A stretch of 64,000 bases of DNA, taken from assembly GCF_033025475.1 (NCBI RefSeq), contig NZ_CP130322.1, positions 558,001-622,000 of the forward strand. Direction: 5' to 3'. The position numbers and the translations under genes were made by a program. The notes under the pieces are model-generated. The model ran no database searches, was not told the origin of the DNA, and saw nothing but the letters and a program-made list of their open reading frames with translations. This DNA comes from Sphingomonas sp. C3-2 (GTDB taxonomy: Bacteria; Pseudomonadota; Alphaproteobacteria; Sphingomonadales; Sphingomonadaceae). Positions 19,533 through 44,964 of the stretch are shown here, one piece after another; within the stretch, counting starts at the first letter, position 1; every line of letters begins with the position of its first letter.

Positions 19533-20813
19533 TCAGCCCCGTCCGCGCAGCGTGATGATCGCGATCAGGCTGACGAGCGCGGCCACGGCGAGATAGACGC
19601 CAACCCAACCAAGCCCGCCCTGATCGGCAAGCGCCTGCGCCGCCACCGGGGTCAGCGCCCCGCCGATGATGCCGCCGACATTGAAGGCGATCGACGATCC
19701 CGTATAGCGCACCCGCGCCGGGAATAGCCCCGGAAGCCAGGCGCCAAGCGGACCGTAGACAAAACCCATCACCAGAAGCGCGAACGACAGAAAGGCCCAG
19801 ATCGCAAGCAGCGATCCGCTGGCGAGCGCGGGCGCGAGCAGCATCCCGGTCAGGATCGCGCCCACACAGCCCCAGCCGAGCACCCGGCCCGCGCTGGTGA
19901 GATCGGCGAACCAGCCCGACAGCGCGATGCCGAGTGCCATGAACAGGATCGCGGCGAGCTGCACGCCCAGAAACGCCTCGCGGTCATAGCCAAGCGAGGT
20001 CGTGCCATAGCCAAGCGCAAAGGCCGTGGTGAGATAGAAGATTGCAAAGCAGACGACCGCACCGAAGGTGCCACCCAGCGTTTCGCGCCAATGATCACGG
20101 AAAAGCTCCGCCATCGGCACCGAAGGCGGGGGGCCTTCTTCCATCGCCTCGGCAAAGGCGGGGGTTTCAGTGAGCTTCAGCCGCACCCAAAGGCCAAGGC
20201 CGACAAGGATGATCGAGGCGAGGAACGGCAGGCGCCAGCCCCAGGCTTCAAACTGTTCGGGCGTCAACACCATGCCAAGGATCAGGAACAGGCCGTTCGC
20301 GGCGATGAAGCCCACCGGCGCACCGAGCTGCGGTACCATGCCGAAGCGCCCACGCCAGCCCGGCGGCGCGTTTTCGACCGCGAGCAGGGCCGCCCCGCCC
20401 CATTCGCCGCCAAGGCCAAAGCCCTGGCCGAAACGCAGAACGCACAAAAGCAGCGGCGCCCACCAGCCGATCGACTGATAGGTGGGAAGGAAGGCGACAA
20501 GCAGCGTCGATCCGCCCATCAGCATCAGCGAGGCGACGAGCGTCGACTTGCGTCCGATCCGGTCGCCGAAATGGCCGAACACGCTGGCGCCGAGCGGACG
20601 CGCGATAAAGGCAACGCTGAGGCTGGCATAGGCGGCGAGCAGTTGCACCGACTTGGATTCCGCCGGGAAGAAGAGCGGGCCGAACACCAGCGCCGCCGCC
20701 GTCGCATAGATGTAAAAGTCGTAGAATTCGACCGAGGTGCCGACCAGACTGGCCAGCAGCACCCTGCGGTTCGAAGGCGCCTCAGCCCCTGCATTGATTG
20801 CACCCGTCGCCAT
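19533..20813 (-). CDS. MFS transporter, metabolite:H+ symporter (MHS) family
   Basis: This 426-residue protein has twelve transmembrane segments. MHS-family marks are visible: VEFYDFYIYATAAALVFGPLFF in the first helix, ARPLGASVFGHFGDRIGRKSTL in loop 2-3, and GFGLGGEWGGAALLAVE. Relatives such as ProP, ShiA, KgtP and CitA import osmolytes or organic acids with protons; the substrate here is not predictable. It stands alone between convergent rsmD and the SMR gene. Confidence 0.88.
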   Translation of the reverse strand: MATGAINAGAEAPSNRRVLLASLVGTSVEFYDFYIYATAAALVFGPLFFPAESKSVQLLAAYASLSVAFIARPLGASVFGHFGDRIGRKSTLVASLMLMGGSTLLVAFLPTYQSIGWWAPLLLCVLRFGQGFGLGGEWGGAALLAVENAPPGWRGRFGMVPQLGAPVGFIAANGLFLILGMVLTPEQFEAWGWRLPFLASIILVGLGLWVRLKLTETPAFAEAMEEGPPPSVPMAELFRDHWRETLGGTFGAVVCFAIFYLTTAFALGYGTTSLGYDREAFLGVQLAAILFMALGIALSGWFADLTSAGRVLGWGCVGAILTGMLLAPALASGSLLAIWAFLSFALLVMGFVYGPLGAWLPGLFPARVRYTGSSIAFNVGGIIGGALTPVAAQALADQGGLGWVGVYLAVAALVSLIAIITLRGRG

Positions 20814-20911
20814 CGTTCCTCCCTTGCTGGCCTGCCCTTAGCTCCGGCCCCGCCATTTTCGAAAGGGAATTTCTGAATTTTTGCGGCGAGCGCAATCTTG
20901 ATCGCGCGTCA

Positions 20912-21232
20912 TCAGCTCTGGGCGAACAATTTTGTGCCCACCACGCCGCAGACGATCATCGCCATGAACAGCATCTGCACCGTGCCGACACGCTCGCCGA
21001 ACAGGATCGCCCCGCCGATGATGACGCCCACCGCGCCAAGCCCGGTCCAGATCGCATAAGCGGTGCCCGCCGATATGCCCTTCATCGCCAGCGACAACAG
21101 CCACATATTGACGAAGGAAAGCCCGATCGGAACGGCGGCGGCCGCAAATGTTTGCTGCACCTGCGCCCATTTCAGGCTGAGCGCCCAGATGATTTCGGTG
21201 ACAACGGCAACAGCCAGGATAACCCATGCCAT
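20912..21232 (-). CDS. small multidrug resistance (SMR) family transporter, Gdx/SugE type
   Basis: This 106-residue protein has four transmembrane helices. The essential glutamate lies in VVTEIIWALSLKWAQ, and GTAYAIWTGLGAVG in helix 3 is characteristic of the Gdx (SugE) guanidinium exporters rather than of EmrE. It works as an antiparallel dimer in the inner membrane. Only one copy is present, so it should be a dual-topology homodimer. The 114-nt upstream leader was checked for a guanidine riboswitch; a hairpin exists but the known consensus was not found. Confidence 0.85.
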   Translation of the reverse strand: MAWVILAVAVVTEIIWALSLKWAQVQQTFAAAAVPIGLSFVNMWLLSLAMKGISAGTAYAIWTGLGAVGVIIGGAILFGERVGTVQMLFMAMIVCGVVGTKLFAQS

Positions 21233-21256
21233 GGGGGAACGGCCCTTTCACGAAAA

Positions 21257-21290
21257 CGGGCTCGTTCGATCCGGTGCAGCCGGAAACCCG
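21257..21290 (-). other. nested hairpin in the leader of the SMR gene
   Basis: On the minus strand CGGG and CCCG enclose an inner CCGG-CTGCA-CCGG hairpin, ending about 25 nt before the SMR start. It could be a structured 5' leader. The sequence GGGTTTCCGG recalls part of the guanidine-I riboswitch, but the downstream conserved segment is absent, so no riboswitch is called. Confidence 0.25.
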
Positions 21291-21346
21291 AAAGAGGCGG
21301 CACCGCCAATCGCCTTAGACAGCGGTCATCGGCCGGTCAATTCGCC

Positions 21347-22231
21347 TTAGTCCGGCATCGCCGTCGCCTGCGCCGGGGCGATGGTGAGCGCCGCGCCGAG
21401 CGATGCTGCAATGATCGCGCCGATCGCCCCCCATTGCACCACGCTCAGCCGTTCGCCCAGAAACACCAGCCCCGAAAGCGCACCGATCGCCGGCTCCATG
21501 CTCATCAGCGTGCCGAATACGCGCGTGGGCAGACGGGTAAGCGCGATCATTTCCAGCGTATAGGGAAAGGCAGACGACAGGATGGCAACCGCCAGCCCCA
21601 TCGGCAGCACCGCCGGATCAAGCAGCGCCGTACCGGCATGGGCGACGCCGATGGGCACGATCAGCACCGCCGCCACCAGTGACCCCCATGCCACCGTGCG
21701 CGTGCCATGATCCGCCCCCGCCTTTTGCCCGAAGACGATGTAGAGCGCCCAGCAGGCGCCCGCCGCCAGCGCGAACAGCGCGCCCACCGGATCGACGCCG
21801 TGCGCGCTGTCCCCGATCGGCAGCAGCAAGGCGATGCCGCCAAGCGCGAGCAATACCCAGAGGAAATCGACCGGCCGCCGCGATCCAAGAATGGCCACCG
21901 CAAGCGGCCCGGTGAATTCCAGCGCAACCGCGATGCCCAGCGGCACCGTGCGGAGCGCCATGTAGAAAAGCAGGTTCATCCCGCCAAGCGATGCGCCGTA
22001 CAGGATGATCGGCCACCAGCCGCCCCGCGCAGGCATGTTGCGCCACGGCCGTGTCAGCACCAGCAGGATGGCCGCAGCAAAGAACAGGCGAAGCGCCGTC
22101 ATCCCGGCCGGGCCCACCAATGGAAACATGCCCTTGGCGAACGATGCGCCGCTCTGGATCGAAACCATCGCGACGATCAGCAGCGCAATCGGGAACGCCA
22201 CCTGTGCAAGCGCGCTTTTGCCCTGGTTCAT
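21347..22231 (-). CDS. EamA (DMT) family transporter, RhtA-like
   Basis: This 294-residue protein has ten hydrophobic helices as two EamA repeats. The stretch ALEFTGPLAVAILGSRRPVDF and the order of repeats resemble RhtA, an exporter of threonine and homoserine; the substrate remains an inference. It starts at 22231 with MNQGKSALAQVAF and is divergent from the uvrD-type helicase across 109 nt. The SMR gene follows downstream on the same strand after 114 nt, so two small-molecule exporters lie in tandem. Confidence 0.82.
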   Translation of the reverse strand: MNQGKSALAQVAFPIALLIVAMVSIQSGASFAKGMFPLVGPAGMTALRLFFAAAILLVLTRPWRNMPARGGWWPIILYGASLGGMNLLFYMALRTVPLGIAVALEFTGPLAVAILGSRRPVDFLWVLLALGGIALLLPIGDSAHGVDPVGALFALAAGACWALYIVFGQKAGADHGTRTVAWGSLVAAVLIVPIGVAHAGTALLDPAVLPMGLAVAILSSAFPYTLEMIALTRLPTRVFGTLMSMEPAIGALSGLVFLGERLSVVQWGAIGAIIAASLGAALTIAPAQATAMPD

Positions 22232-22340
22232 GATGCGGGCGAGTCGAGGCGGAACTGGATCATGCCCGGGGCATCCGGGAGGCGTGGATTGCAGTCAAGC
22301 GCCATTGCCCTGGCGGCATTCGTTCCCTAACTGTTCACGC

Positions 22341-24617
22341 ATGAGTCTTCCCGTCCCCTCGCCCGACCAAATGCCCTATCTTACCGGCCTCAACGATCCG
22401 CAGCGCGAAGCCGTGCTGACGAGCGAAGGGCCTGTGCTGGTGCTGGCGGGGGCCGGCACTGGCAAGACGGCGGCGCTCACCGCGCGGCTGGCGCACCTCA
22501 TCTACACGCGCAAGGCATGGCCATCGGAAATTCTGGCGGTCACCTTCACCAACAAGGCCGCGCGCGAGATGAAGGAACGCGTCGGCCGGCTTGTGGGCGA
22601 CGCGGTTGAAGGCATGCCGTGGCTCGGCACCTTTCACGCGATCGGCGCCAAGATGCTGCGGCGGCATGCCGAACTGGTCGGGCTGCAGACCAATTTCACC
22701 ATTCTCGACACCGACGATCAGTTGCGCGTGATGAAGCAGCTGATCGCCGCGGCCGACCTCGATGAAAAGCGCTGGCCCGCCCGGCAGCTGGCCGGGCTGA
22801 TCGATAGCTGGAAGAACAAGGGGCTGACGCCCGCCGATATCGATGCGGGCGACAGCGAGATGTTCGCCAATGGCCGCGGGCGCGAACTTTATGCGCTGTA
22901 TCAGGAACGGCTGCGCGCGCTCAACGCATGCGACTTCGGCGATCTGTTGCTCCATATGCTCACCATCCTGAAGCGCGACCGCCAAGTGCTCGAGCAGTAT
23001 CAGGAACGGTTCAAATATATCCTGGTCGACGAATATCAGGACACCAACGCCGTCCAATATCTCTGGCTCCGCCTGCTGGCGCAGCGGCGCAAGAACATCT
23101 GCTGCGTGGGTGACGACGATCAGTCGATCTATTCCTGGCGCGGCGCGCAGGTGGAAAACATCCTTAAGTTCGAAAAGGATTTCCCCGGCGCCGCGATCAT
23201 CCGGCTCGAACAGAATTACCGCTCCACCCCGCACATCCTTGGCGCGGCATCGGGCCTCATCGCCCATAATGGCGGCCGGCTGGGCAAGCAGCTGTGGACC
23301 GAAACCGACGCGGGCGAGAAGATTTCGGTTCTGGGTGTGTGGGATGGCCCCGAAGAGGCGCGCCGCGTGGGCGACGAGATCGAGGCGCATCAGCGCCGCG
23401 GCGGCTCGCTCGACGATATCGCCATCCTCGTCCGCGCCCAGCATCAGACGCGCGAATTCGAAGACCGGTTCATCTCGATCGGCATGCCCTACCGCATCGT
23501 CGGCGGCTTCCGCTTCTATGAGCGGCAGGAAATCCGCGATGCGCTTGCCTATTTGCGGCTGGTCAACCAGCCGGCGGACGATCTGGCGTTCGAACGGATC
23601 GTCAACGTCCCCAAGCGCGGGCTGGGCGACAAGGCACTGGCCAAAATCCATATGCTGGCGCGAATGGAGGAAATTCCGCTCGCGCTGGCGGCAACGCGCA
23701 TCCTCGACACCGACGAGCTCACCCCGCAGGCGCGGCGCGCTCTCGGCGGTTTCATTGGGGATGTCATGCGCTGGCGCGACATGGCGAACGACCTGCCCCA
23801 TGCCGAACTGGCCCGCCAGATCCTCGATGAATCGGGCTATACCGCGATGTGGCAGGCCGAAAAATCGAGCGACGCGGCCGGGCGGCTTGAAAACCTCACC
23901 GAACTTGTCCGCGCGATGGAAGAATATGAAACGTTGGGCGCGTTCCTCGAACATGTCAGCCTGGTGATGGACAATGACGCCGCCGCCGAGGACACCAAGG
24001 TGACGGTGATGACGATCCACGCCGCCAAGGGGCTTGAGTTCGACACCACCTTCCTTGTCGGGTGGGAAGAGGGCATTTTCCCGTCGCAGCGCTCGCTCGA
24101 TGAAGGCGGCAATGCCAGCCTCGAGGAAGAACGCCGCCTCGCCTATGTCGCAATCACCCGCGCACGGCGCAAATGCGTGATCATCCACGCCGCCAACCGG
24201 CGCATCTATGGCCAATGGACCAGTTCGATCCCCTCGCGCTTTGTTGCCGAACTGCCGCCCGAACATGTCGAGGCGGAAAGCTCGCTTTCGGGCGGCGAAA
24301 GCCTGTGGCGCGCCAATTGGTCCGAACACAGCGATCCCTTTTCCAACCTGGCACGCGGCGGCGGTCGCGGGCCCGGCTGGCAGCGCGCTGCTGCAGGCGG
24401 CCAGTTCTCGACGCATCCGCAGCGCGCGGCCGAAGCACGCGCCAGCGCGGTGAGCTTTGGCAACAAGGGGCGCAGCGACATGACGCTGGGCCTGCGCGTG
24501 TTCCACCAGAAATTCGGTTACGGCATCATCGCAGAAATCGAAGGCAACAAGCTGGAAATCGATTTCGATACCTCGGGCCGCAAGCGCGTGATGGACAGTT
24601 TCGTCACGATTGCGTGA
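22341..24617 (+). CDS. uvrD: ATP-dependent DNA helicase, UvrD/PcrA type (SF1A)
   Basis: This 758-residue 3'-5' helicase shows all SF1A motifs: Walker A AGAGTGKT at 36-43, motif II DEYQDTN, GDDDQSIYSWRGA, QNYRS, TIHAAKGLEF and the VAITRARRK arginine-finger motif. The C-terminus ends with a Tudor-like domain (GLRVFHQKFGYGIIAEIEG) as in PcrA, which binds RNA polymerase. Expected roles are nucleotide-excision repair, mismatch repair and transcription-replication conflict. The ATG at 22341 was taken; an in-frame ATG ten codons later (MPYLTGLND) is equally possible. The frame stays open upstream but overlaps the divergent EamA gene. Confidence 0.93.
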   Translation: MSLPVPSPDQMPYLTGLNDPQREAVLTSEGPVLVLAGAGTGKTAALTARLAHLIYTRKAWPSEILAVTFTNKAAREMKERVGRLVGDAVEGMPWLGTFHAIGAKMLRRHAELVGLQTNFTILDTDDQLRVMKQLIAAADLDEKRWPARQLAGLIDSWKNKGLTPADIDAGDSEMFANGRGRELYALYQERLRALNACDFGDLLLHMLTILKRDRQVLEQYQERFKYILVDEYQDTNAVQYLWLRLLAQRRKNICCVGDDDQSIYSWRGAQVENILKFEKDFPGAAIIRLEQNYRSTPHILGAASGLIAHNGGRLGKQLWTETDAGEKISVLGVWDGPEEARRVGDEIEAHQRRGGSLDDIAILVRAQHQTREFEDRFISIGMPYRIVGGFRFYERQEIRDALAYLRLVNQPADDLAFERIVNVPKRGLGDKALAKIHMLARMEEIPLALAATRILDTDELTPQARRALGGFIGDVMRWRDMANDLPHAELARQILDESGYTAMWQAEKSSDAAGRLENLTELVRAMEEYETLGAFLEHVSLVMDNDAAAEDTKVTVMTIHAAKGLEFDTTFLVGWEEGIFPSQRSLDEGGNASLEEERRLAYVAITRARRKCVIIHAANRRIYGQWTSSIPSRFVAELPPEHVEAESSLSGGESLWRANWSEHSDPFSNLARGGGRGPGWQRAAAGGQFSTHPQRAAEARASAVSFGNKGRSDMTLGLRVFHQKFGYGIIAEIEGNKLEIDFDTSGRKRVMDSFVTIA

Positions 24618-24670
24618 CGAAACCCGGCATCGCCTGTTTCGCGGAGGATGCTTCGCGGTATAGCTAGGCG

Positions 24671-25846
24671 ATGTCCTTGAGCCTTTCCGAAGCCGAATCC
24701 CTTGTCCGCGACGGGATCGCCGATCTGCGCGGCGGCCGCCTGACCGACGCGAAGGCGCGTTTCGAGCGTGTGATCGCCGCCGATACGAGCCTGCCCAAAC
24801 CCTGGTTGCTGCTCGCACAGGCCTGCCATCATCTGGGCGACGCCAGCGGCGAGGAAGACGCGCTTGACAAGTTGCTCTTGACCGACATGCGCAACCTTGC
24901 CGGGTTGCTGATGAAAGCCGATCTGCGTGCCCGCGCCGGGGACGACCGGGCGGCATCCAGCTTTTACCGCACCGCGCTCAACGTCGCCGGGATCACGGAC
25001 AATGTGCCGCAAATGCTGGTGCCCATGCTCCAGCGCGCCGAGGCCTATCTGAACAGCGCCAGCGCACGGTTCGAGGCCCATCTGGTCAATCGGCTCGGCA
25101 GCGCGGCCGTGCAGCAGTCTGGACTTGGCGGGCGCGTACGCCAGTCGGTCGATCTGCTGCTCGGCAAATCCACGCTTTATCTGCAGCAGCCGTCCTCCTT
25201 CTACTTTCCTGGCCTGCCCCAACGCCAATTTTACGAGCGCGACGAATTTCCCTGGCTCGCCGAGATCGAGGCGGCGGTTCCCGCGATGCAGGAGGAACTG
25301 CGCGCGGTACTGGCCGAAGGGCATGAGTTCACACCCTATGTCGAGGGCTCACCCGATCGCCCGCGCCCGAACAACCACCTGCTTGGCGATCCAAGCTGGG
25401 GGGCGTTCTATTTCTGGAGGAATGGCGCGCGCGTGGCCGAAAACGCCGCGCGCTGCCCACGCACTATGGCTGCGCTCGACCATGCCCCCCAGCCCATCAT
25501 CACCGCGCGTTCACCCATGGCGCTCTATTCGGTGCTCAAGCCCGGCACCCATATCGCGCCGCATCATGGCATGCTCAACACGCGGCTGATCTGCCATATC
25601 CCGCTCATGGTTCCCGGCGACTGTGCGCTGCGCGTCGGCAACGAGACGCGGGCGTGGGAGGAAGGCAAGGCGCTGATCTTCGATGATTCGATCGAGCATG
25701 AGGCATGGAACCGCAGCGACAGCACCCGCGTGATCCTGTTGTTCGAGGTCTGGCGCCCGGAAATCTCGGCAGACGAGCGCGCCGAACTCGCCGCCATCTT
25801 CTCCGCGATCGACGAATATCAGGGCGTGCCCGAAGAGGCGATCTGA
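24671..25846 (+). CDS. TPR-containing aspartyl/asparaginyl beta-hydroxylase family protein
   Basis: This 391-residue protein joins N-terminal TPR-like helices (about 5-130) to a C-terminal AspH-type 2-oxoglutarate oxygenase domain (about 190-370). Iron ligands are H298 and H343; G300 stands where most such enzymes have a carboxylate, and R305 should bind 2-oxoglutarate. NETRAWEEGKALIFDDS is almost identical to vertebrate AspH. The target is unknown; bacterial relatives may hydroxylate proteins or lipid A acyl chains (LpxO). There is no signal peptide, so the reaction is cytoplasmic. TATAGC lies 10 nt before the ATG and may be a promoter for a leaderless or short-leader transcript. Confidence 0.88.
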   Translation: MSLSLSEAESLVRDGIADLRGGRLTDAKARFERVIAADTSLPKPWLLLAQACHHLGDASGEEDALDKLLLTDMRNLAGLLMKADLRARAGDDRAASSFYRTALNVAGITDNVPQMLVPMLQRAEAYLNSASARFEAHLVNRLGSAAVQQSGLGGRVRQSVDLLLGKSTLYLQQPSSFYFPGLPQRQFYERDEFPWLAEIEAAVPAMQEELRAVLAEGHEFTPYVEGSPDRPRPNNHLLGDPSWGAFYFWRNGARVAENAARCPRTMAALDHAPQPIITARSPMALYSVLKPGTHIAPHHGMLNTRLICHIPLMVPGDCALRVGNETRAWEEGKALIFDDSIEHEAWNRSDSTRVILLFEVWRPEISADERAELAAIFSAIDEYQGVPEEAI

Positions 25847-25933
25847 TCACCCGGCCCGCGATATGCGGCGGCTGGCCGAGCGAATATCCATTTGCTTCTG
25901 GATATTTGCCCATGCCCCCTGCATAGCGCGCCG

Positions 25934-26248
25934 ATGCAGCAGTTCGTCGCTCTCTATGCCCAGTTCAAGACCAGCACCGCTCAGTGGATCGGCATCACGA
26001 ACGCCGAATGCCATATCCATGCGGGGCTGCTCATCTATCTGGCGTCCTCGGTCATCCTCCGAAAGCCGCTGCGCTCGCCCGTCCCGCTCCTCATCGTGAT
26101 CGCGGCCGAGGCAGCCAACGAATATTTCGATCGCCTGTCGACCGGCTCGTGGCGCTGGGACGACACGGTCCACGACATATTGTTCACACTGCTCTGGCCG
26201 GCGATCCTCTTCACGCTCGCCCGGCTGCGCAAGCTGAAGTCGGGCTGA
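25934..26248 (+). CDS. small VanZ-like membrane protein
   Basis: This 104-residue protein has an amphipathic N-terminus and about three hydrophobic segments (23-40, 45-62, 80-98). It resembles small VanZ-like or uncharacterised proteins with the pattern WRWDDTVHDILFTLLWPAILF. The start at 25934 (MQQFVALYAQ) fits better than an ATG 14 codons upstream. No function can be assigned. Downstream, base composition changes sharply to the AT-richer unknown gene. Confidence 0.65.
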   Translation: MQQFVALYAQFKTSTAQWIGITNAECHIHAGLLIYLASSVILRKPLRSPVPLLIVIAAEAANEYFDRLSTGSWRWDDTVHDILFTLLWPAILFTLARLRKLKSG

Positions 26249-26303
26249 TCCCCCGTCTGGCCGATCAAGCGGCTGCCCCCTTTTGCCGCTACAACGCGGA
26301 ACG

Positions 26304-27401
26304 CTATCGCGCGGCCATGATGGGTACCGCTCCGCTCATCGCGTTTCGCTGATTTATGTCGGTCATCACAAGAATGACATCGGGCATTTCAAAATTCACG
26401 CGGTATCTGCCTCTCTTTTCAAAGCGCGGGAGGCTTCGAAACTGAGGTCGCGCCAAGCCGGTAAAGCTATATATACTGTCCGCACCAACGGCCCAGACCG
26501 TGTCTCCCGATCGCGCCAAGCCAAAGAATGGCACCGTGTTCAATATATCATCTTCCTCGCTCGCCTTCTGGACAGCCGGCTGAGGCCCCAGCGGCTTAAA
26601 ATACAGCCGCCGAACATTCGTGCCGCACACCTCTACAATGCGGCCATGGGACGATATGTGAACCAACCCAATCGCCGCGACCACGCAACCTGGCTTCGAC
26701 GGCGACGCGACAAGTGCATTTACCGGATCACATTCGGTATTGAGTGGACCACCGCAAAGCGCACCAGAATGATTGCTTTCGATAATTTGGACCGTCCCGT
26801 CACTGCGGCTTATACGCCTCAGCCCACCGCCCCATTCACCGTCGTTGAAACCCACCCAGATTGAATCATCGGCAATCAGAGCCGTTCCGAAAGAGAATAG
26901 CGATTTCAATTCCGGCTTCAGCCTGACTTCCCGAATCCGCTCGCCCTCCATTTCAAGCAAACGGCGATTGGTGATGAGGGAGACGCCTCCCCTATCAGAC
27001 GAACAGGCAAGCGCCTCCAGCCGCTCATTTTCAACCGCGACCGACGCCATGATTTTCCACGTCGATTGCAATCGACGCTGCACCGACCATGCGCCCTTCC
27101 CCGTTTCAACCAACGTGACCAGTTGTCCATCGGATCGGCAAATTTCCAATGCCTTACCACCAAGCTCCACACGCTTTGGCAGAGCCTCATTGGGTTTCAG
27201 GGAAACAAGCGTCCCATCACTGTGCAACACCCAAAGTTGACCGTCCGCAAATACGGCGCGGCTAATATCGATCCGTTCGCCCGTGCCGCCATCCGTGTAA
27301 GCCGCCTGACGGGACAGGAAATAAGCGGCGACGGCAATGCACCCGACAACAGCAACCGCTGTTCCCAAAGCAAGCCAGGGACGGCGCAACAAACTCGGCA
27401 T
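26304..27401 (-). CDS. membrane-anchored protein of unknown function, AT-rich gene
   Basis: This 365-residue protein has one N-terminal transmembrane anchor (about 9-30, LALGTAVAVVGCIAVAAYFL) after a short basic tail, so the rest probably faces the periplasm. The body is strand-rich with repeated W/F-x-hydrophobic and G-D-x-V segments suggestive of a beta-propeller, but no clear family is recognised. The start at 27401 (MPSLLRRPWL) was chosen because the upstream codons belong to the DUF885 gene antisense or overlap region. G+C is conspicuously lower than in its neighbours (26 of 60 bases in 26341-26400). It ends 55 nt from the convergent VanZ-like gene. Origin by transfer is plausible. Confidence 0.7.
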   Translation of the reverse strand: MPSLLRRPWLALGTAVAVVGCIAVAAYFLSRQAAYTDGGTGERIDISRAVFADGQLWVLHSDGTLVSLKPNEALPKRVELGGKALEICRSDGQLVTLVETGKGAWSVQRRLQSTWKIMASVAVENERLEALACSSDRGGVSLITNRRLLEMEGERIREVRLKPELKSLFSFGTALIADDSIWVGFNDGEWGGGLRRISRSDGTVQIIESNHSGALCGGPLNTECDPVNALVASPSKPGCVVAAIGLVHISSHGRIVEVCGTNVRRLYFKPLGPQPAVQKASEEDDILNTVPFFGLARSGDTVWAVGADSIYSFTGLARPQFRSLPRFEKRGRYRVNFEMPDVILVMTDINQRNAMSGAVPIMAAR

Positions 27402-27403
27402 CC

Positions 27404-29143
27404 CTAAAACACCGCCCGCCCATCGCCGCCGAGCATCATCTGCCGAACGAGCGGAATGGGCGGCCCGCCATAGCCAAGGAAGCGATTGTGGAATTCCTTC
27501 CATGCCTTGCGGCCTCCATTTTGCGTGGTCCAATCGTCGCGCAGCTTGCGGATCATGAGCTTGCCGAGCGTGTAGTTCAGATAGGCCGGATCATAGGTGC
27601 CGCGCGCCGCCTGCTGGCGGGCATTGCCCTCATCCTGATAGCATTGCTCGATGAAAAGCTTGCGCGCGCCCTCCTGGCTGAGCGTGCCCGAATGCAGCCC
27701 GATCGCCGAAACGAAGCGGCAATTGCGCAGAAGCGCATTGGAGAGTTGGCCGACATGGGTTTCAGCATCGCCTTCTCCCAGCCCCGCATCCCACATCATC
27801 TCCTCGGTATAATGCGCCCAGCCCTCGGCATAGGCATAGCCAACGAACACCTTGCCAAAGAGCGACTTTGCCCGGTTGGCATGGAGGAAATTGAGGAAAT
27901 GGCCCGGCCACACCTCGTGCACCGAGGTGAACAGCAGATCCTTTTCCCCCGGAATATAGGCCTGTTGCACGGCCGGGCTCCATGCCGGATCGGGCGGCGA
28001 GATATAGAAAACCGAGGGCAGGCCTTTCTCATAGGGCCCGGGAATATCGATATAGGCCGAATTCTGCCGGTTATAGGGCGGTGATTCCTCGACCAGCGCC
28101 TCTTCGGCGCCTGGGATCGAGACGATATCCTTGTCGATCAGGAACTGTTTGAGCATCGGCAACTGCCGGCGCGCGCCGGCAACCGGGCCGCCCTCGGGCT
28201 TGTCGGCATTCAGCTTTACCATGCAGTCGGCAATGCTGGCGCCGGGCGCGAATGTGTCGCACGCCGATTTCAACGCGGCCTGATTACGGCGCAGATCAGC
28301 CCAGCCGATGCGTTCAAGTTCAGCAACCGGGGTATCGACCCGCTCGGTCGCGTATAGCATCCGCTGGAACCGGTCCTTGCCCAGCGCGAAATCCTGCGTC
28401 GCGTCCTTGCGGCCGCTTTCCAGCCAGACCGCCAGTTCCTGCATCGCCTTCGATGCAGCCCCCGCTGCCGTGTCGAATTCGCGCTGCAGTTCAGCGTTCT
28501 TGACCGATGCGAACGCCGCCTTGGCATCACCGACATAATAGCCCGCCAGCCCCTCAAAACCCGCCTTGCCGTAATCGATGAAGCTCAATGGCATCGGGGT
28601 GCGCAGATTGGCGCGGATCTGTGCCGCCGCGGCGGGCACGTTGCGTGCAAAGGCGATGAACGCCCTCATCCGCGTTTCGGCATCGGCATAGGGCCGCGCA
28701 ATATAGACATTGGGGTCCAACCCGGCGCCCAGATAAAAGGCGGGGTTGTGGTGCGGCTGATCGGCATCGCTGAGCCAGAAAAGCTGCCCTTCGGCCACGG
28801 CGATCAGATAATCGCGCTCGAAGCGCTGCGGTTCGGTCAGCGCCTTGGCATCGAATTTGCGCGCATCGGCGATCGAACGCTTCAGGAAATCGGCCTGAGC
28901 GGCAAGCCCTTCGGCACTCCAGTCGGGCAGCTTGCCGTCAAACTCATGGCGCCCCTGATATACGGCGAAACCGGGGTTTTGGACGAAATAACCATCGATG
29001 AAGCGCGAGACGAAAGCATCCCATTCACGCTGGTTCAGCGCTTCAGCTTCGACATCGGCCGCGTTTCTGTTTTCAGGCGCGCAGCCTGTGGCGGCAAAAA
29101 GCGCGCAGGCCGAAGCCGCCGCCAAAAGAGCCCGTCGAACCAT
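27404..29143 (-). CDS. DUF885 family lipoprotein, putative metallopeptidase
   Basis: This 579-residue protein begins with a lipoprotein signal peptide ending in A-T-G-C21, so it is probably anchored in the outer or inner membrane facing the periplasm. The DUF885 signature includes HEVWPGHF, an HExxxxH zinc-binding pattern typical of this peptidase-like family, followed by GYAYAEGWAHYTEE. Substrates are unknown. The ATG at 29143 was selected for the signal peptide; the frame remains open upstream but is antisense to the exporter gene. The stop lies 3 nt before the start of the AT-rich gene. Confidence 0.85.
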   Translation of the reverse strand: MVRRALLAAASACALFAATGCAPENRNAADVEAEALNQREWDAFVSRFIDGYFVQNPGFAVYQGRHEFDGKLPDWSAEGLAAQADFLKRSIADARKFDAKALTEPQRFERDYLIAVAEGQLFWLSDADQPHHNPAFYLGAGLDPNVYIARPYADAETRMRAFIAFARNVPAAAAQIRANLRTPMPLSFIDYGKAGFEGLAGYYVGDAKAAFASVKNAELQREFDTAAGAASKAMQELAVWLESGRKDATQDFALGKDRFQRMLYATERVDTPVAELERIGWADLRRNQAALKSACDTFAPGASIADCMVKLNADKPEGGPVAGARRQLPMLKQFLIDKDIVSIPGAEEALVEESPPYNRQNSAYIDIPGPYEKGLPSVFYISPPDPAWSPAVQQAYIPGEKDLLFTSVHEVWPGHFLNFLHANRAKSLFGKVFVGYAYAEGWAHYTEEMMWDAGLGEGDAETHVGQLSNALLRNCRFVSAIGLHSGTLSQEGARKLFIEQCYQDEGNARQQAARGTYDPAYLNYTLGKLMIRKLRDDWTTQNGGRKAWKEFHNRFLGYGGPPIPLVRQMMLGGDGRAVF

Positions 29144-29299
29144 CGCCTCAGCCTCCCCTGTCCAACCCTCTGTCTTTGCCCGATCTTTGCACCGCGAAAA
29201 GCGACATGCCATGGCCATTCGACGAACGACGTCGGCGAATTTGTTCGTTGCAAGCTTTCCTCGGTTGAAACGGCGGTTTTTGCGGGCATAGAAGACCGC

Positions 29300-30583
29300 G
29301 TGGAAAAACAACGTCATCCCCTCGCCTACCGCGATTTCGCCTGTTACTTCACCGCGCGTCTCACCAGCACGCTGGCGCAGATGGCCATGGTGATCGTCAT
29401 CGGCTGGCAGGTGTACGACATCGCCCGTACCCAGCTTGGCATGTCCCCCAAGGAAGCCGCCTTTCAGCTTGGCTTGATCGGCGTGGCACAGTTCGTGCCA
29501 TTGTTGCTGCTCACGCTCGTCGTCGGCTGGGTGGCCGACCGGATGGATCGCCGCTGGATCGCGCGCGGGGCCGTGGCGCTGGAGGCCGGCTGCGCGCTCG
29601 CGCTCGCCTGGATGACGCACAACGGCACGGTCAGCCTGCCCGCCCTGTTCACGGTCGCCGCCCTTCTGGGCGTCGCACGCGCCTTTGCCAGCCCCGCGCT
29701 GCAGGCGCTTGCTCCCAATCTGGTGCCCGCCGCCGTGCTGCCCACTGCGATCGCGATGAGCTCGATTGCGTGGCAGACCGGATCGGTGTTCGGCCCGGCA
29801 ATGGGCGGCTATCTCTATGCGCATGATCATGCGCTGTCCTATTGGGTCAGCACCGCGCTGTTCGCCGTCGCCTTTGTCGCGTTGACGCTGGTGCGGCCTG
29901 TCCCGATCCCCAAGATCCAGAACACCGCCAAACCATGGCAGCAGATGATCGACGGGCTGCGCTATGTTCGCCAGAACCGGCTGGTGCTGGGCGCGATCTC
30001 GCTCGATCTCTTCGCCGTCCTGCTGGGCGGCGCGACCGCGATGCTCCCCATCTATGCGCGCGACGTGCTGCATGTCGGCGCCGAAGGGCTCGGCCATCTG
30101 CGCGCGGCCCCGGCGGTGGGTGCGGTACTGATGGCGCTGTGGTTCTCGTGGCGGCCGCTGCGCAATGATGTCGGCGTGAAGCTTCTTATTGCCGTTGCCA
30201 TTTTCGGGCTTGCGACCGCGATTTTCGGCATGTCGCGCACCATGCCCCTGTCACTTGCCATGCTCGCCCTTCTGGGCGCAGCCGATATGCTTTCGGTTTA
30301 TGTCCGCCAGTCGCTGATCCAGCTTTACACGCCGGATTCCATGCGCGGCCGCGTGGGTGCGGTGTCGACGCTGTTCATCTCGGGATCGAACGAACTGGGC
30401 GAAGCGCGCTCTGGATTCCTCGCGGCGCTGGCCGGCCCGGTCACCGCAACGGTTGCAGGCGGCATCGGCGCAATCGCGATTGCGGCGCTGTGGGCGCGCT
30501 GGTTCCCAGAACTGCGTCTTGCGCGTACATTCTCGCAACCTGACCATCTTGACGATTTGCCTCTGAAGGAGAACGCGAAATGA
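29300..30583 (+). CDS. MFS exporter, EntS-like (MFS_3 type)
   Basis: This 427-residue protein has twelve transmembrane helices and resembles the EntS/MFS_3 group: [22 protein letters not shown] near the start, [15 protein letters not shown] and the C-terminal [20 protein letters not shown]. Members export siderophores or drugs. The start is GTG at 29300 with AGAAGA upstream; no ATG gives an adequate N-terminus. Its stop overlaps cysK (ATGA), which ties its translation to cysteine synthesis and might hint at export of a sulfur metabolite, though this is only inference. Confidence 0.85.
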
Positions 30584-31500
30584 AGGCCAATTCGATCCTG
30601 GAGACGATCGGCAATACCCCCCATATCCGGGTGCAGCGGCTGTTCGGGCCGGCCGAAGTCTGGATCAAGTCGGAACGCAGCAATCCCGGCGGGTCGATCA
30701 AGGACCGTATCGCGCTTTCGATGATCGAGGCGGCAGAGGCATCGGGCGAACTGAAGCCCGGCGGCACGATCGTTGAGCCCACCTCGGGCAATACCGGCGT
30801 CGGCCTTGCAATGGTTGCGGCGGTGAAGGGCTATAAGCTCATCCTCGTCATGCCCGAAAGCATGTCGCTCGAGCGCCGCCGCCTCATGCTGGCTTATGGC
30901 GCCAGCTTCGATCTCACGCCCAAGGAAAAGGGCATGAAGGGCGCGATCGAACGCGCCAGCGAACTCGTTTCGCAGATGCCCGGCTCGTGGATGCCGCAGC
31001 AGTTCGAAAACCCCGCCAATATCGATGTGCATGTGAAAACCACAGCGCAGGAAATCCTGAAGGACTTTCAGGATGCCCCGCTCGACGCGCTCGTCACCGG
31101 GGTGGGCACCGGCGGCCATATCACCGGCACCGCCGAGGTGCTGAAAAAGGCATGGCCGAACCTCAAGGTCTTCGCGGTCGAACCGACGCTGTCGCCCGTG
31201 ATCTCGGGCGGCCAGCCGGGCCCGCACCCGATTCAGGGCATCGGCGCCGGCTTCATCCCGGCCAATCTGCACACCCAGCTGATCGACGGCGTGATTCAGG
31301 TGGACCCGGCCGATGCCAAGGAAATGGCACGCCGCGCCGCACGCGAGGAAGGCATGCTCGTCGGCATTTCGTCCGGCGCGACGCTGGCCGCCATCGCCCA
31401 GAAGCTGAAAGAACTGCCCGAAGGCAGCCGTGTGCTCGGCTTCAACTACGACACCGGTGAGCGCTATCTTTCGGTGCCGGACTTCCTGCCCGAAAGCTGA
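30580..31500 (+). CDS. cysK: cysteine synthase A (O-acetylserine sulfhydrylase)
   Basis: This 306-residue PLP enzyme makes cysteine from O-acetylserine and sulfide. PLP binds K41 in [11 protein letters not shown], and the TSGNTGVG loop and [10 protein letters not shown] phosphate-binding loop are present. Length and [10 protein letters not shown] favour CysK over CysM. It overlaps the exporter upstream (ATGA), and the SleB-type gene begins 4 nt downstream. Confidence 0.95.
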
Positions 31501-31504
31501 AGGG

Positions 31505-32662
31505 TTGGACGCCGCTTCACTTTTCGGTGAAGAGCCGCCACGCGCCGATCCACTGGCAAGGGCGCTGATCCTTGCCTTTGGGATCGGCACGGTGGCGGCG
31601 GGCTGCGCGGTTGCCTGGGCCGATCCACCCGCGCCTCCCCGCCTCCACAGCACCGCGCGGGCCGCGCCGCTTCCCAAACTCAGCGCGCCGCCCCCGGTAG
31701 AACCGCTCGAAGTGCGCGACCTGACACCTGCCGAGGCCGTCGCATTCAACGCGACGATCCCCTTTTCAACCGCCCCCAACCCGGCTGCCCGCCCGTTCAA
31801 GCTGGCGGTCACCGGCGTGGAACGCGAACGCGCCACCGACTGTCTTGCCGCCGCCATGTTGTACGAGGCGGGTTCGGGCGATCCGCCCGGCCAGCGCGCC
31901 GTGGCGCAGGTCGTGCTCAATCGGCTACGTCACCCGGCTTTTCCGAAAACGGTGTGCGGGGTCGTGTTCGAGGGCGCGGAGCGGACAACGGGGTGCCAGT
32001 TCACCTTCACCTGCGACGGCGCCATGGCCCGCCTGCCCGCACCCGATATGTGGGATCGTGTCCGCACGCTGGCGGCCAAGATTCTGAACGGCGAAGTCTA
32101 TCGCCCGGTCGGCCACGCAACCCATTATCACACCGACTGGGTCGTTCCCTATTGGAGCGACAGCCTCGACAAGATCACCGCCGTCGGCACGCATCTTTTC
32201 TTCCGCTGGCAAGGCTGGTGGGGAACACCCCCCGCCTTTCGCCGCCAGTATGACGGGCCGGAGCCGGAAATCGCGAAGCTCGCAGCGCTTTCACCCGCCC
32301 ATGCCGGCGCCGTGCAATTGGCGGATACGGGGACGACGGGCCTGGTCCCCGCCAGCGTACCGCGTGCGATGACGATCATCGATGGCAGCTTCATCGCCAC
32401 GCTTGATCAGTCCGCCTTGCCCGAAAGCTTCGAAAGCCTGGCGCGCGAAACCTGCGGCACGCGCAGCTATTGCAAGTTCATGGGGTGGACCGATTCCGCC
32501 CAGGTGCCCGGCGCGTTGCCGCTGACCAACGAGGCGATGGCCGCGATGTCGTTCAGCTATCTGCGCGATGAGAAGACGGGCTTTGAAAAGGCGCTGTGGA
32601 ACTGCGCCCAGTTCAAACGCGCGGAGCCGGGCCAATGCATGAAGCCCCGCGCGCTGGGCTGA
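31505..32662 (+). CDS. SleB/CwlJ-type cell wall hydrolase
   Basis: This 385-residue protein has a signal-anchor (about 19-39, RALILAFGIGTVAAGC) and a Hydrolase_2 domain (about 105-230) beginning CLAAAMLYEAGSGDPPGQRA with the catalytic glutamate in YEAGSG. SleB/CwlJ domains act as lytic transglycosylases in spores; in Gram-negatives they remodel peptidoglycan in the periplasm. The TTG at 31505 was taken because the membrane segment would be lost from later starts; the earlier in-frame ATG (31430) lies inside cysK. The C-terminal 150 residues match no domain I know. Confidence 0.78.
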   Translation: MDAASLFGEEPPRADPLARALILAFGIGTVAAGCAVAWADPPAPPRLHSTARAAPLPKLSAPPPVEPLEVRDLTPAEAVAFNATIPFSTAPNPAARPFKLAVTGVERERATDCLAAAMLYEAGSGDPPGQRAVAQVVLNRLRHPAFPKTVCGVVFEGAERTTGCQFTFTCDGAMARLPAPDMWDRVRTLAAKILNGEVYRPVGHATHYHTDWVVPYWSDSLDKITAVGTHLFFRWQGWWGTPPAFRRQYDGPEPEIAKLAALSPAHAGAVQLADTGTTGLVPASVPRAMTIIDGSFIATLDQSALPESFESLARETCGTRSYCKFMGWTDSAQVPGALPLTNEAMAAMSFSYLRDEKTGFEKALWNCAQFKRAEPGQCMKPRALG

Positions 32663-33076
32663 TCAGACGGACAAGAATTCGCCAATCGGCCGCGGCCGGC
32701 GGTGGTTGTCGATCGCAACGAAGGTAAAGATCGCCTGCGTCACCCGGTGTTCGGAATCGCCGTGGCGATCGCGCGCCCAAGCCTCCACCGCGATCCGCAT
32801 CGAGGTACGGCCCACCTTGACCAGCCGGGTATAGACCGACACCTCGTCACCAACGAAAACGGGCTGGTGAAACGCCATGCCCTCGACCGCGATCGTCACC
32901 GCGCGCCCGCGCGCCAGGCGCGACGCAACCGACGACGCAGCAAGGTCCATCTGGCTCATCAGCCAGCCGCCGAAAATATCACCATAGACATTGGCATTGG
33001 CCGGCATCGCGGTGACGCGCACCGTCGGAGCGCCCTCGGGCTTCTCGTTGCTGGAAAAACTGTTTTCTTCAGACAT
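32663..33076 (-). CDS. acyl-CoA thioesterase, YciA-like hotdog fold
   Basis: This 137-residue hotdog protein carries the YciA signature: PANANVYGDIFGGWLMSQMD with catalytic Asp in GDIFGGW, then VEGMAFHQPVFVGDEVSVY. It should hydrolyse short to medium acyl-CoA thioesters in the cytoplasm as a hexamer. The start at 33076 (MSEENSF) was chosen; 33091 (MKVAS) is possible. It ends against the convergent SleB gene with no gap. A TTGGCT/TATTTA pair around 33124-33152 is a candidate promoter. Confidence 0.85.
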   Translation of the reverse strand: MSEENSFSSNEKPEGAPTVRVTAMPANANVYGDIFGGWLMSQMDLAASSVASRLARGRAVTIAVEGMAFHQPVFVGDEVSVYTRLVKVGRTSMRIAVEAWARDRHGDSEHRVTQAIFTFVAIDNHRRPRPIGEFLSV

Positions 33077-33203
33077 GGACGCAACTTTCATTAAACTGCC
33101 GCGCACAGATTGCTGCAACGCAGCATAAATACGCAAGCGCAACTTTCAGCCAAGCGCATAACTGAAACGCAAGCATGGTTCTGCGCCAGAAATAGACCGA
33201 TCC

Positions 33204-33241
33204 AAAACGAAAAGCGGGGCCGGTATCGCTACCCGCCCCGC
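33204..33241 (-). terminator. intrinsic terminator of the acyl-CoA dehydrogenase gene
   Basis: On the minus strand the arms GCGGGGC and GCCCCGC (33235-33241 and 33214-33220) enclose an inner GGTA/TACC stem with a four-base loop. The hairpin is followed by a T-rich tail TTTTCGTTTT (33213-33204). It begins 26 nt after the acyl-CoA dehydrogenase stop and separates that gene from the thioesterase. Confidence 0.85.
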
Positions 33242-33266
33242 GTTTGCAGAATGGTTTTTCAGCGCC

Positions 33267-35060
33267 TCAGAATGCCTCGACCGGCAATGCCATCAGCGAA
33301 TCGGCACCGCCCTCAATCTTGCGGCGCAGCGCACCTGCATCGGGCAACATCCGCTCGCCATAGAAACGCGCCGTCACCAGCTTTGCTTCGTAATAGCCCT
33401 TGTCAGCGGGATCGCCTGCCAGCGCGGCGGATGCGGCCTTCGCCATACGCAGCCACATCAGCCCGACCGAAACGATGCCCAGAATATGCATATAGGGCAC
33501 CGCTGCGGCCCCGGCATTATTGGGGTTCGCCATCGCGTTCTGGAGCAACCACATCGTCGCCGCCTGCAACTCGCCATTGGCCTTTTCCAGCCGCTGCGCG
33601 AAATCGGCCAGCTTCTCGTCGGCCTTGGCGGCGGCGACTTCCTCGCCCACGAGCTTGAAAAATGCCTGGACCGCGCGGCCGCCGTTCATCGCAAGCTTGC
33701 GTCCAACAAGGTCCATCGCCTGGACGCCGTTGGTGCCTTCATAGATCATCGCGATCCGGGCATCGCGGACATATTGCTCCATGCCCCATTCGCGAATGTA
33801 GCCATGGCCGCCATAAACCTGCTGGCTGTTGGTGGCGACGTCATAGCCCTTGTCGGTGCCATAGCCCTTGATCACCGGGGTCAGCAGCGAGATCAGGTCG
33901 TCGGCCGCCTGCCGCTCTTCCTCGGTCTGGGCGTTGTGGCTGAGATCGACGAGCAGCGCGCCCCAGAGGAAGAGCGCACGCAGCCCCTCGGTCAGCGCCT
34001 TGCCCTCCATCAGCATGCGGCGGACATCGGGGTGGACGAACAGCATATCGGCCTTTTCCGCCGGATCGGCGGGGCCGGTCAGCGCCCGCCCCTGCCGGCG
34101 GTCCTTCGCATATTGCACCGCGTTCTGATGGGCGACCTCGGCCTGCGCCAGTCCCTGCAGACCGACTCCCAGCCGCGCGGCGTTCATCATGATGAACATC
34201 GCCGCCAGCCCCTTATTCTCCTCACCGACGAGGAAACCGGTCGCCCCGTCATAGTTCATGACGCAGGTGGCATTGCCGTGGATGCCCATTTTTTCCTCGA
34301 TCGAGCCGCAGCTGACCGCGTTGCGCGCGCCCAGCGAGCCATCGTCGTTCACCATGAACTTGGGCACGATGAAGAGCGAGATGCCCTTCACCGTGTCCGG
34401 CGCCCCCGCAACCTTGGCGAGGACCAGATGGATGATGTTGTCGGTCAGGTCGTGCTCGCCCGCCGAAATGAAGATCTTGGTGCCGGTGATCTTGTAGCTG
34501 CCATCACCCTGCGGTTCGGCGCGGGTGCGGATCATCCCCAGATCGGTACCGGCATGGGGCTCGGTCAGGTTCATCGTCCCGCCCCATTCGCCCGCGATCA
34601 TCCTGGGCGTATATTTCTCTTTCTGCTCCTGCGATCCCTTGGCCAGGATCGCCGAAACCGCGCCGAGGGTCAGTCCCTGATACATGGCAAAGGCCATGTT
34701 CGAACTGATCAGATATTCCTCGAACGCGGTGGAGACGACATGCGGCAGGTTCTGGCCACCAAATTCCTCGGGCATGCTCAGCGTCATCCAGCCGCCCTCG
34801 GCGAACTGGCGATAAGCCTCCTTGAAGCCCGCGGGCGTCGTCACGCTGCCATCGGCATGGCGCGTGCAGCCTTCCGCATCCCCGCTCTGGTTGAGCGGGA
34901 ACAACACTTCGGCCACGAACCGCCCGCCCTCGTTCAGCACGGCGTCGACGGTTTCGGGCGTCACATTCTCGAAACCGGGCAGATTGGCATAGCGATCCAG
35001 CCCGATCACCTCGTCGAGGATGAAGCGCGTATCGCGAACGGGCGCGGTGTAAATCGGCAT
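33267..35060 (-). CDS. acyl-CoA dehydrogenase (FadE-type, with C-terminal extension)
   Basis: This 597-residue flavoenzyme forms the trans-2 double bond in fatty acyl-CoA beta-oxidation. Three dehydrogenase domains run from about residue 40 to 460; the catalytic base is the glutamate in [14 protein letters not shown], and [13 protein letters not shown] is diagnostic. The extra 130 residues at the C-terminus are typical of the alphaproteobacterial 600-residue group. The ATG at 35060 ([10 protein letters not shown]) fits; upstream codons overlap merR. A MerR-type regulator lies 38 nt upstream on the same strand, and the terminator at 33204 ends the unit. Confidence 0.93.
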
Positions 35061-42974: not shown

Positions 42975-44471
42975 TTGAGCCCCGAAGAAGCCGTTCGCGA
43001 AGCCAAACTTCATGAATATGGAATATTCGGGACTCCCCCTGAAAAGCCGTTCGACGACATTGCTGAGTTCGCGGCCGAATTATGCGAATGCCCGATCGCA
43101 ATCGTGAACCTCGTGGGCACCGAACGCCAATGGTTCAAGGCGATCCGGGGGCTCGACGCCCGCGAGGCCCCCACCCGCAATTCGTTCTGCGCGCATGCCA
43201 TGCACGAAAAAACGCTCATGACGGTCGAGGATGCGCGGCTGGACCCACGCTTCAGCGCGCACCCCTTCGTCACCGGCGCACCGCATATCCGCTTTTATGC
43301 GGGCGTGCCGCTCACCTCGCCCGAAGGCTTTCCGCTCGGCGCACTCTGCGTGATCGACACCAAGCCCCGCGCGCCGCTCAACGCGCTGCAGACGCAAGGG
43401 CTGAACGTGCTCGCGGCGCAGGTGATGAACATGCTCGAACTCCGCCGCCGCCTGCTCCGCAAGGAAGAGGAAGACCGGCATCTGGCGGAAACCGACCAGA
43501 AATTCCGCCTCATCGCAGACACGATGCCCCAGATGGTCTGGTCCACCACGGCAGAGGGACGTGTCGATTTCTACAATAGCCGCTGGTACGAATTCACTGG
43601 CGCTTCCCGGCAGGACGCCTTTGATGTCGCCGTGCCGCCCATGTTCCACCCCGATGACCGGGAACGCGTACGCCGTGCCTGGCACGCGGCCCTCGCCGAG
43701 GGCGGTTCCTATGCCATCGAATATCGGCTGCGCCATCACAGCGGCGATTATCGCTGGACGACATCGCGCGCTCTGCCCCTCCGCGATCGGGAGGGCAGCG
43801 TGACACGCTGGCTCGGCACCACGACCGATATCCACGACACAAGGCTGGCGCTCGAGGAACGCGAGTTGGTGGCGCAGGAACTGAACCACCGGATCAAGAA
43901 TATTTTTGCGGTAATCGCGGGGCTGATCAACCTTTCCGCGCGCAAGCATCCAGAGTTTTCGGCGTTGGCAGAGGATCTGCGCGATCGGGTGACCGCGCTT
44001 GCCCGCGCGCATGATTATGTCCGCAAACCGCACGGTACGGCGGCCGAAGAAACGCGAACGCGAACCAGCCTGCATGGCATGCTGGGGGAATTGTTCGCGC
44101 CCTATAACGACGCACAATCCGGCCGCATTTCGATAGAGGGCGACGACACCGAGATCGACGACCGTTCCGCCACCCCCATCGCGCTTCATTTTCATGAACT
44201 TGCCACCAACGCCGCCAAATACGGCGCCTTGTCCGCCCCGGGCGGAAAGGTTCGTGTCCGGATCATCGCCGATCCCGCCAACTGCACCATCCAGTGGCAG
44301 GAAACCGGCGGCCCCCCGGTCACCACTCCGCCCACGCGCGAAGGTTTTGGGGCGCAGCTTATCCGCCTGAGCGGAGAGCATCAGCTGCGCGGCACGATCG
44401 CGCGCGACTGGCACCCTGAAGGGTTAAGGCTTGCGATTTCTATCCCGCTGGAATCGCTGTCGCGAACCTAG
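42975..44471 (+). CDS. GAF-PAS hybrid histidine kinase of the HWE/HisKA_2 class
   Basis: This 498-residue protein has a GAF domain (about 25-155), a PAS domain with PAC (about 172-290) and an HWE-type kinase. The phosphoryl His305 lies in QELNHRIKNI, and the N-box HFHELATNAAKYG is intact. There is no transmembrane segment, so it senses a cytoplasmic signal, possibly light or redox if the PAS/GAF domains bind a chromophore, but no LOV cysteine motif (NCRFLQ) is seen. The start is TTG at 42975 with AGAAAGG upstream. A single-domain response regulator is encoded 0.5 kb away on the opposite strand and may be its partner. Confidence 0.9.
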   Translation: MSPEEAVREAKLHEYGIFGTPPEKPFDDIAEFAAELCECPIAIVNLVGTERQWFKAIRGLDAREAPTRNSFCAHAMHEKTLMTVEDARLDPRFSAHPFVTGAPHIRFYAGVPLTSPEGFPLGALCVIDTKPRAPLNALQTQGLNVLAAQVMNMLELRRRLLRKEEEDRHLAETDQKFRLIADTMPQMVWSTTAEGRVDFYNSRWYEFTGASRQDAFDVAVPPMFHPDDRERVRRAWHAALAEGGSYAIEYRLRHHSGDYRWTTSRALPLRDREGSVTRWLGTTTDIHDTRLALEERELVAQELNHRIKNIFAVIAGLINLSARKHPEFSALAEDLRDRVTALARAHDYVRKPHGTAAEETRTRTSLHGMLGELFAPYNDAQSGRISIEGDDTEIDDRSATPIALHFHELATNAAKYGALSAPGGKVRVRIIADPANCTIQWQETGGPPVTTPPTREGFGAQLIRLSGEHQLRGTIARDWHPEGLRLAISIPLESLSRT

Positions 44472-44493
44472 CCCAAAAGAACCGAAGGCCCGC

Positions 44494-44922: not shown

Positions 44923-44964
44923 TCGTTCGCCGAACAACCCGACGATACCGCCCTAGTTCAGGGC

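Follow-up and report, generated by a model that had tools for sequence, protein, structure and literature searches.

A single reverse-strand open reading frame of 365 residues (26304..27401; ATG at 27401, TAG at 26304) looks foreign by its GC content and codon use in the 64,000-nucleotide stretch of DNA analyzed here (the window), which lies in the one contig of 3.53 Mb that makes up the genome of its host, Sphingomonas sp. C3-2. The locus raises the question of how such a gene came to stand among its neighbors and what its product might do. Our findings indicate that the product of this foreign-looking single gene is probably a propeller-shaped protein, anchored in the membrane and linked by disulfides, that belongs to a rare family absent from the family databases searched.

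Composition and codon use

The low GC content that had drawn attention to the gene in an earlier note is real: positions 26341-26400 hold exactly 26 G+C in 60 bases, and just 2 of the 1066 sixty-base lines of the window hold that few or fewer. The second such line, 53161-53220, is the lowest of the window (22 of 60). Over its whole length the gene has a GC content of 0.562 against 0.632 for the window, 3.0 standard deviations below the mean among 1098-base sliding windows, in keeping with the description of an AT-rich gene in GC-rich surroundings. There is one comparable dip elsewhere, from about 44.4 kb; this second low-GC stretch (44431-45351) carries two called genes whose GC3 is about 0.64, one of them unmatched in Pfam and the other with a response-regulator receiver domain.

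The GC contrast is a matter of codon choice, because GC3 deviates with the amino acids held fixed: the synonymous-codon GC3 is 0.581, while host codon use would give 0.781 for the same residues (z of -9.7). The raw GC3 of the gene is 0.598, compared with 0.770 +/- 0.043 for 55 window genes called by a crude codon score. The gene itself was missed by the codon-score caller, presumably because its codon use scored below threshold. Among 31 window genes (this one plus 30 hand-picked from the called genes, three with adjusted starts) it has the lowest synonymous-GC3 z, the next being -3.0, and the lowest CAI-like index, 0.433, followed by 0.584, so that the survey of codon adaptation and GC3 along the window that had been proposed singles it out as the most deviant gene. 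Amino-acid composition was ruled out as the cause of the low GC, as the same amino acids with host codon use predict a GC content of 0.635, a value derived from a reference pool in which uvrD was out of frame.

Insertion site

Comparison with two congeners, G004 and G002, places the gene on a segment (26249..27403) inserted between two convergent resident genes, one for a small membrane protein (25934..26248, forward strand), which matches no Pfam family at its cut-off, and one of the DUF885 family (27404..29185, reverse strand), assigned by Pfam search and by the congener comparison. At the empty site in G004 these two genes converge with their stop codons 4 bases apart, and in G002 the stop codons are 7 bases apart, the small gene there having been matched by protein and by eye, with no DNA alignment. 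The site is thus empty in both congeners in which the flanking genes have stayed side by side; the remaining two have no close DUF885 relative and are uninformative on this point. In the window, 2 bases separate the DUF885 stop codon from the ATG of the acquired gene, and co-transcription with the DUF885 gene is therefore possible. No promoter-like sites were found in 26150-29300, and terminator-like sites in that interval number 2 against 3.6 in shuffles.

The earlier note had seen neither flanking repeats nor mobile genes, and this holds: a repeat search of 25500-28300 returned just short or imperfect pairs, none bordering the gene, and no mobility genes flank it. The nearest tRNA of the window lies at 32678, more than 5 kb away, and no Rfam RNA element reaches its gathering threshold in 20000-34000. 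On the other side of the small membrane protein gene, the interval between it and uvrD (24618-26248, small gene included) is a variable slot that holds a TPR/aspartyl-asparaginyl hydroxylase gene in the window, an L,D-transpeptidase (YkuD) gene in G004, and a GFA-family gene together with an L,D-transpeptidase (YkuD) gene in G002.

Distribution among relatives

The gene is present in 7 of 397 sampled genomes of the family, spread over 6 of 96 genera, in 3 of 385 genomes of the class sample and in 3 of 398 of the phylum sample, the host genome being included each time and at most five first-look candidates scored per genome, so that weak members may be missed. It occurs in none of four congeners. 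A failed search is an unlikely cause of this patchiness, since an 18-row profile at E 1e-10 and the single sequence at E 0.001 recover the same seven family genomes. As a rough control, the upstream aspartyl/asparaginyl hydroxylase gene was looked for and turned up in 26 of 59 relatives (the host genome being counted), many of these rows being distant paralogues that in G002 and G004 are located elsewhere in the genome. A DNA search at E 0.001 showed no further copies in the host genome. One family member, G264, retains the C-terminal part alone (L007 1501-1725; query residues 287-361, in a frame of 118 residues), which is likely a remnant of the gene.

The relatives thus do not carry the same gene at the same site in most cases, the outcome that the earlier note had named as fatal to its suggestion of transfer, and that suggestion is strengthened by the odd codon use, the 7 of 397 genomes, the absence from all four congeners and the two empty sites. 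Acquisition by transfer is supported, and from parsimony and codon use we infer a gain here and not a loss in all four congeners. The closest homologue is just about 50% identical, and no donor with similar DNA was found. Carriage by phage or plasmid was considered and set aside: the single protein matched nothing in 72,556 plasmid or 50,697 phage records, four stretches of viral contigs matched the motif pattern described below but none is a relative, and PADLOC and PHROGs matched neither the window protein nor any of the 18 alignment rows at E 0.01. A viral structure library gave moderate matches to varied proteins, many of them unnamed.

Homologues and their surroundings

Two alignments were used, A1 with six members and A2 with 18 rows. 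A scan of named records with A1 and the pattern G[FT]NxGE[WF]GG returned 17 loci, while the single-protein scan returned none. The named loci belong to Sphingomonas, Blastomonas, Asticcacaulis, Caulobacter, Brevundimonas and Dawidia, and the others come from metagenome-assembled genomes (MAGs) of Sphingomonadales, Lysobacterales, other Proteobacteria, Acidobacteria and Methanoperedens. Some of these are not independent finds, as L026, L032 and L031 come from genomes G171, G005 and G304, respectively, and L039 from G1025.

The neighbors of the gene differ in nearly every lineage. Among 20 loci, with up to seven nearest genes each, called by a crude codon score and some of them doubtful (for example in L028), there is no convincing conserved neighborhood. 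Common neighbors occur in the near-duplicate pairs L031/L032 and L039/L040. uvrD is among the neighbors in the window and in L039 (56% identity) but not in L040, a close relative of L039, and L029 and L036 have one common neighbor pair of 37% identity, receptor-like by eye; we treated both cases of sharing as chance. In Sphingomonas sp. CBMAI 2297 (L027 5518-7615) the homologue lies within a ribosomal protein operon, with the L30 gene on one side and the L15 gene on the other, and in G433 a CTP synthase gene is its closest neighbor on one side. Recombinase or transposase genes were found near homologues in two cases only. In S. edaphi, the homologue is followed by a resolvase gene; 2.4 kb ahead of it stands a DUF6538 gene whose phage-integrase match is weak and falls short of the cut-off, and an SMC-like ATPase gene is found further out. 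For Sphingomonas sp. MA1305, there are transposase genes at distances of 1.6 and 3.7 kb.

Other features of these loci may be recorded here. In the Methanoperedens MAG (L041 2313-4267) the distant homologue directly follows a tubulin/FtsZ-family gene, which its start overlaps, and the same contig opens with a CRISPR-like array (1-700) of nine to ten repeats spaced 72-75 bases. Three homologues (L032 5326-7011, L035 5167-6732 and L038 909-2387) have longer N-terminal parts before the same propeller, by eye either an apparently secreted extra part of more than 200 residues or several apparent membrane helices, in which no Pfam family was recognized.

In a tree of 21 rows the window protein falls near the other Sphingomonas rows, without a starred clade, and three rows with very long branches are of unsure placement. 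Rows from Sphingomonadaceae and Caulobacteraceae occur on both sides of a well-supported split (100/99), a pattern that would fit either transfer or an old duplication with heavy loss.

Family searches

The claim that no family is recognized for the product stood up to library searches. Neither Pfam nor NCBIfam has a family that reaches its cut-off with the window protein, and the one sub-threshold Pfam row is the KIB1-4 propeller (E 0.21, 11.5 bits against a cut-off of 27.4). Across the alignments, weak rows were returned for the NCBIfam glycosylhydrolase F510_1955 (1 of 6 rows of A1, E 0.0016), for the NCBIfam fimbrial usher and DUF1150 (1 of 18 rows each, E 0.012 and 0.017) and for Pfam Mcl1_mid and FBA_3 (1 of 18 rows each, E about 0.02). 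Searching PDB sequences with a profile brought up 18 rows at an E of 1 or below, led by the designed "Cake" propellers (6tjb-6tji; E 0.00019 at best, profile positions 166-186), artificial and symmetric proteins whose match covers one short stretch, with no stretch passing alone. Below these came weak YncE-type propellers (E 0.035) and others, and SEC13 appeared in the corresponding A1 search at E 0.23. To judge by titles and the openings of abstracts, none of the papers that one literature search listed is evidently on this gene, and a second search on seven-bladed periplasmic propellers in islands found nothing.

Of the known families, Reg_prop (PF07494) invites comparison. In our own reading, the window protein around "iWvG-n-G--GGL-ri" in blade 4 resembles a Reg_prop blade, and one distant homologue, L042, lies just above the cut-off of that family (20.7 against 20.4 bits; 1 of 18 A2 rows). 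BT4673 (PDB 3ott) is row 5 of the Foldseek search and 4a2l a weak profile row (E 0.09); both are periplasmic sensor propellers of two-component regulators. The window protein itself has no Reg_prop match at E up to 1 and by the Pfam test is not a member. It differs from these regulators in being one propeller domain without a kinase or regulator domain, and in having three cysteine pairs and the NxGE[WF]GG and H motifs described below.

Predicted fold and location of the product

The structure prediction that had been suggested as a check bears out both the N-terminal helix and the beta-propeller proposed earlier. The AlphaFold2 model, made from 18 rows (pLDDT 85.8, pTM 0.81; weak at residues 32-41, 276-281 and 351-356), predicts one N-terminal membrane helix at residues 7-33 (27303..27383, reverse strand), preceded by basic residues, and then propeller strands at residues 43-365 (26307..27275, reverse strand), which we grouped by eye into seven blades. 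Besides the propeller, the 365-residue protein has just this helix in the model, the order predicted for a membrane-anchored propeller, and several homologues likewise have basic and hydrophobic N-termini. Several of the structure matches from Foldseek and VIA-align are seven-bladed propellers. Foldseek TM-scores are moderate, mostly 0.4-0.5, and among the VIA-align matches listed Rrp9, virginiamycin B lyase, YncE (Z 17.7) and many WD40 propellers score within Z 17.5-19.8; from such near-ties the fold alone follows, and not the family.

The six cysteines beyond the helix form the pairs 88/133, 216/224 and 239/259. In the 18 rows of A2, the two members of a pair occur or are missing together in all 54 row-pair cells, being jointly present in 9, 14 and 16 rows for the three pairs and mixed in none; after four more homologues and realignment the count is 66 of 66, although some rows are near-duplicates and the cells are not independent events. 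The Methanoperedens and Dawidia rows have none of the three pairs. In G140 the partner of C216 is a few columns off in A1 and in place on realignment, so that this pair is alignment-dependent. Because cysteine pairs that are kept or lost together point to disulfides, the co-variation supports three putative disulfides in an exported domain, and the propeller would lie in the periplasm, where the earlier note had placed it.

Conserved loops as a candidate site

Conservation is strictest in a few polar residues, N186, E189 and H248. The motif GFNDGEWGGGL (residues 184-194; 26820..26852, reverse strand) spans, in blade 4, the last part of strand B and the B-C loop, and is a candidate ligand or active site, and GLVHISSHG (residues 245-253; 26643..26669, reverse strand), with the invariant H248, occupies the B-C loop of blade 5. 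Across the 18 rows of A2, eleven positions never vary (G63, G184, N186, G188, E189, G191, G192, P226, G245, H248 and G253), and N186, G188, E189, G191, G192 and H248 are kept in all 22 rows of an enlarged realignment. Residues 184-192 lay in the scan pattern and their conservation in A2 is partly built in; all seven full homologues found without the pattern (G214, G171, G005, G304, G140, G433 and G585, of which G005 and G304 are near-duplicates) nevertheless keep N186, G188-E189, G191-G192 and H248. With residues 184-192 left out, the B-C loops exceed the other loops in conservation by a modest margin (0.49 versus 0.38-0.39; 16 rows, the near-duplicates L031 and L040 omitted).

By the model strands, strand B of blade 4 closes with N186, and the B-C loop after it holds E189 and W190; the corresponding loops of blades 5 and 7 hold H248 and N350, the latter kept in 19 of 22 rows (not in L039, L040 and G585). 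The B-C loops of a propeller share one face, and the loops of N186, E189 and H248 should lie there. A conserved polar loop of this kind can also be structural instead of a ligand site.

Discussion

The reading that we favor, and hold to be moderately likely, is the gain of one gene whose product is an anchored periplasmic disulfide propeller, ligand-binding or enzymatic, carried as optional cargo. The host lineage would have gained the gene between two convergent residents, immediately after the DUF885 gene, to which it may owe its transcription. Its product would be anchored in the inner membrane and hold a seven-bladed propeller in the periplasm, stiffened by three disulfides. A ligand, small or peptidic, would most likely be bound by this propeller, and perhaps chemically altered, at a predicted polar site on one face made up of N186, E189, H248 and perhaps N350. 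The neighboring genes contain no clue to a substrate. Atypical codon use, patchy presence and an empty site in relatives are what horizontally acquired cargo should display, whereas the mobility genes or repeats that should accompany it are missing from this site. The label of optional cargo would suit a gene that is rare, has varied surroundings and in one case lies in a region with recombinase genes.

The main rival is that the protein is a passive periplasmic scaffold or assembly factor for other proteins, in the manner of BamB or Ycf48, with the conserved loops as a docking surface, which we regard as a lesser but real possibility. Propellers often act as scaffolds; the Foldseek matches include Ycf48 and a chain of the E. 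coli beta-barrel assembly machine, and BamB turned up weakly by sequence (E 0.18). YncE and BamB are periplasmic propellers, soluble or lipid-anchored, that most members of their groups retain. Any scaffold that serves a core machine would be expected to be widespread, but this gene is found in few genomes of its own family and has no fixed partner gene at any of the 20 loci, and its strictest conservation is polar and narrow. Nor do we know of the NxGE[WF]GG motif in YncE or BamB. A bolder form of the favored reading, with little direct support and rather doubtful, is that the product inactivates a toxic compound in the periplasm, as a single-gene seven-bladed propeller with an acid and a histidine on one face like virginiamycin B lyase (Vgb; 2z2n). 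Vgb is among the top structural rows (VIA-align Z 19.0, 252 aligned residues, rmsd 4.2), it is a seven-bladed propeller encoded by a single gene, as is predicted here by a fold match that is not specific, and both the invariant E and H residues and a rare, single-gene, transferable distribution would fit a niche detoxification gene. Against this, Vgb scores within one Z unit of WD40 propellers at 13% identity, and it is absent from the 18 rows up to E 1 of the PDB profile search. Neither Pfam nor NCBIfam listed a Vgb family for the window protein. Vgb is cytoplasmic and has no membrane anchor.

That the gene is ancestral to the family and was lost almost everywhere, with weak selection and not transfer behind its odd composition, seems to us improbable. 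The nearest homologues do come from the same family, and Sphingomonadaceae are represented in each of the two deep groups of the tree, but the codon use is unlike that of the genome, all four congeners lack the gene, it occupies unrelated positions in other genomes, and members occur in MAGs of Acidobacteria, Lysobacterales and Methanoperedens. The Acidobacteria and Methanoperedens rows moreover group together (98/94) inside an otherwise proteobacterial set, though the Methanoperedens branch is long and unsure in place and MAG contigs can be misbinned. We give very little credence to a functionless remnant or phage moron, which the low GC and the apparently truncated G264 homologue might suggest, as the gene is open and full length here with its motifs intact, and no phage or viral-contig homologue was found.

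Our preferred reading, the gain of a single gene for an anchored periplasmic propeller, can be extended into a more speculative proposal to which we attach rather low probability, namely that these proteins form a roaming, hitherto undescribed single-gene family of disulfide-bonded periplasmic propellers, with a range that runs from Sphingomonads as far as Acidobacteria, and perhaps to archaea, and with NxGE[WF]GG and H loops that make up a new active site protecting the cell against an external compound. To judge from the loci found here, members of this family seem to insert singly and cleanly at widely differing sites, one of them a ribosomal protein operon, and in most cases no mobility genes can be seen alongside; the movement of such genes is still poorly understood. 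In summary, an unnamed low-GC open reading frame becomes a definable protein family with a predicted fold and location, a candidate site and a testable phenotype.
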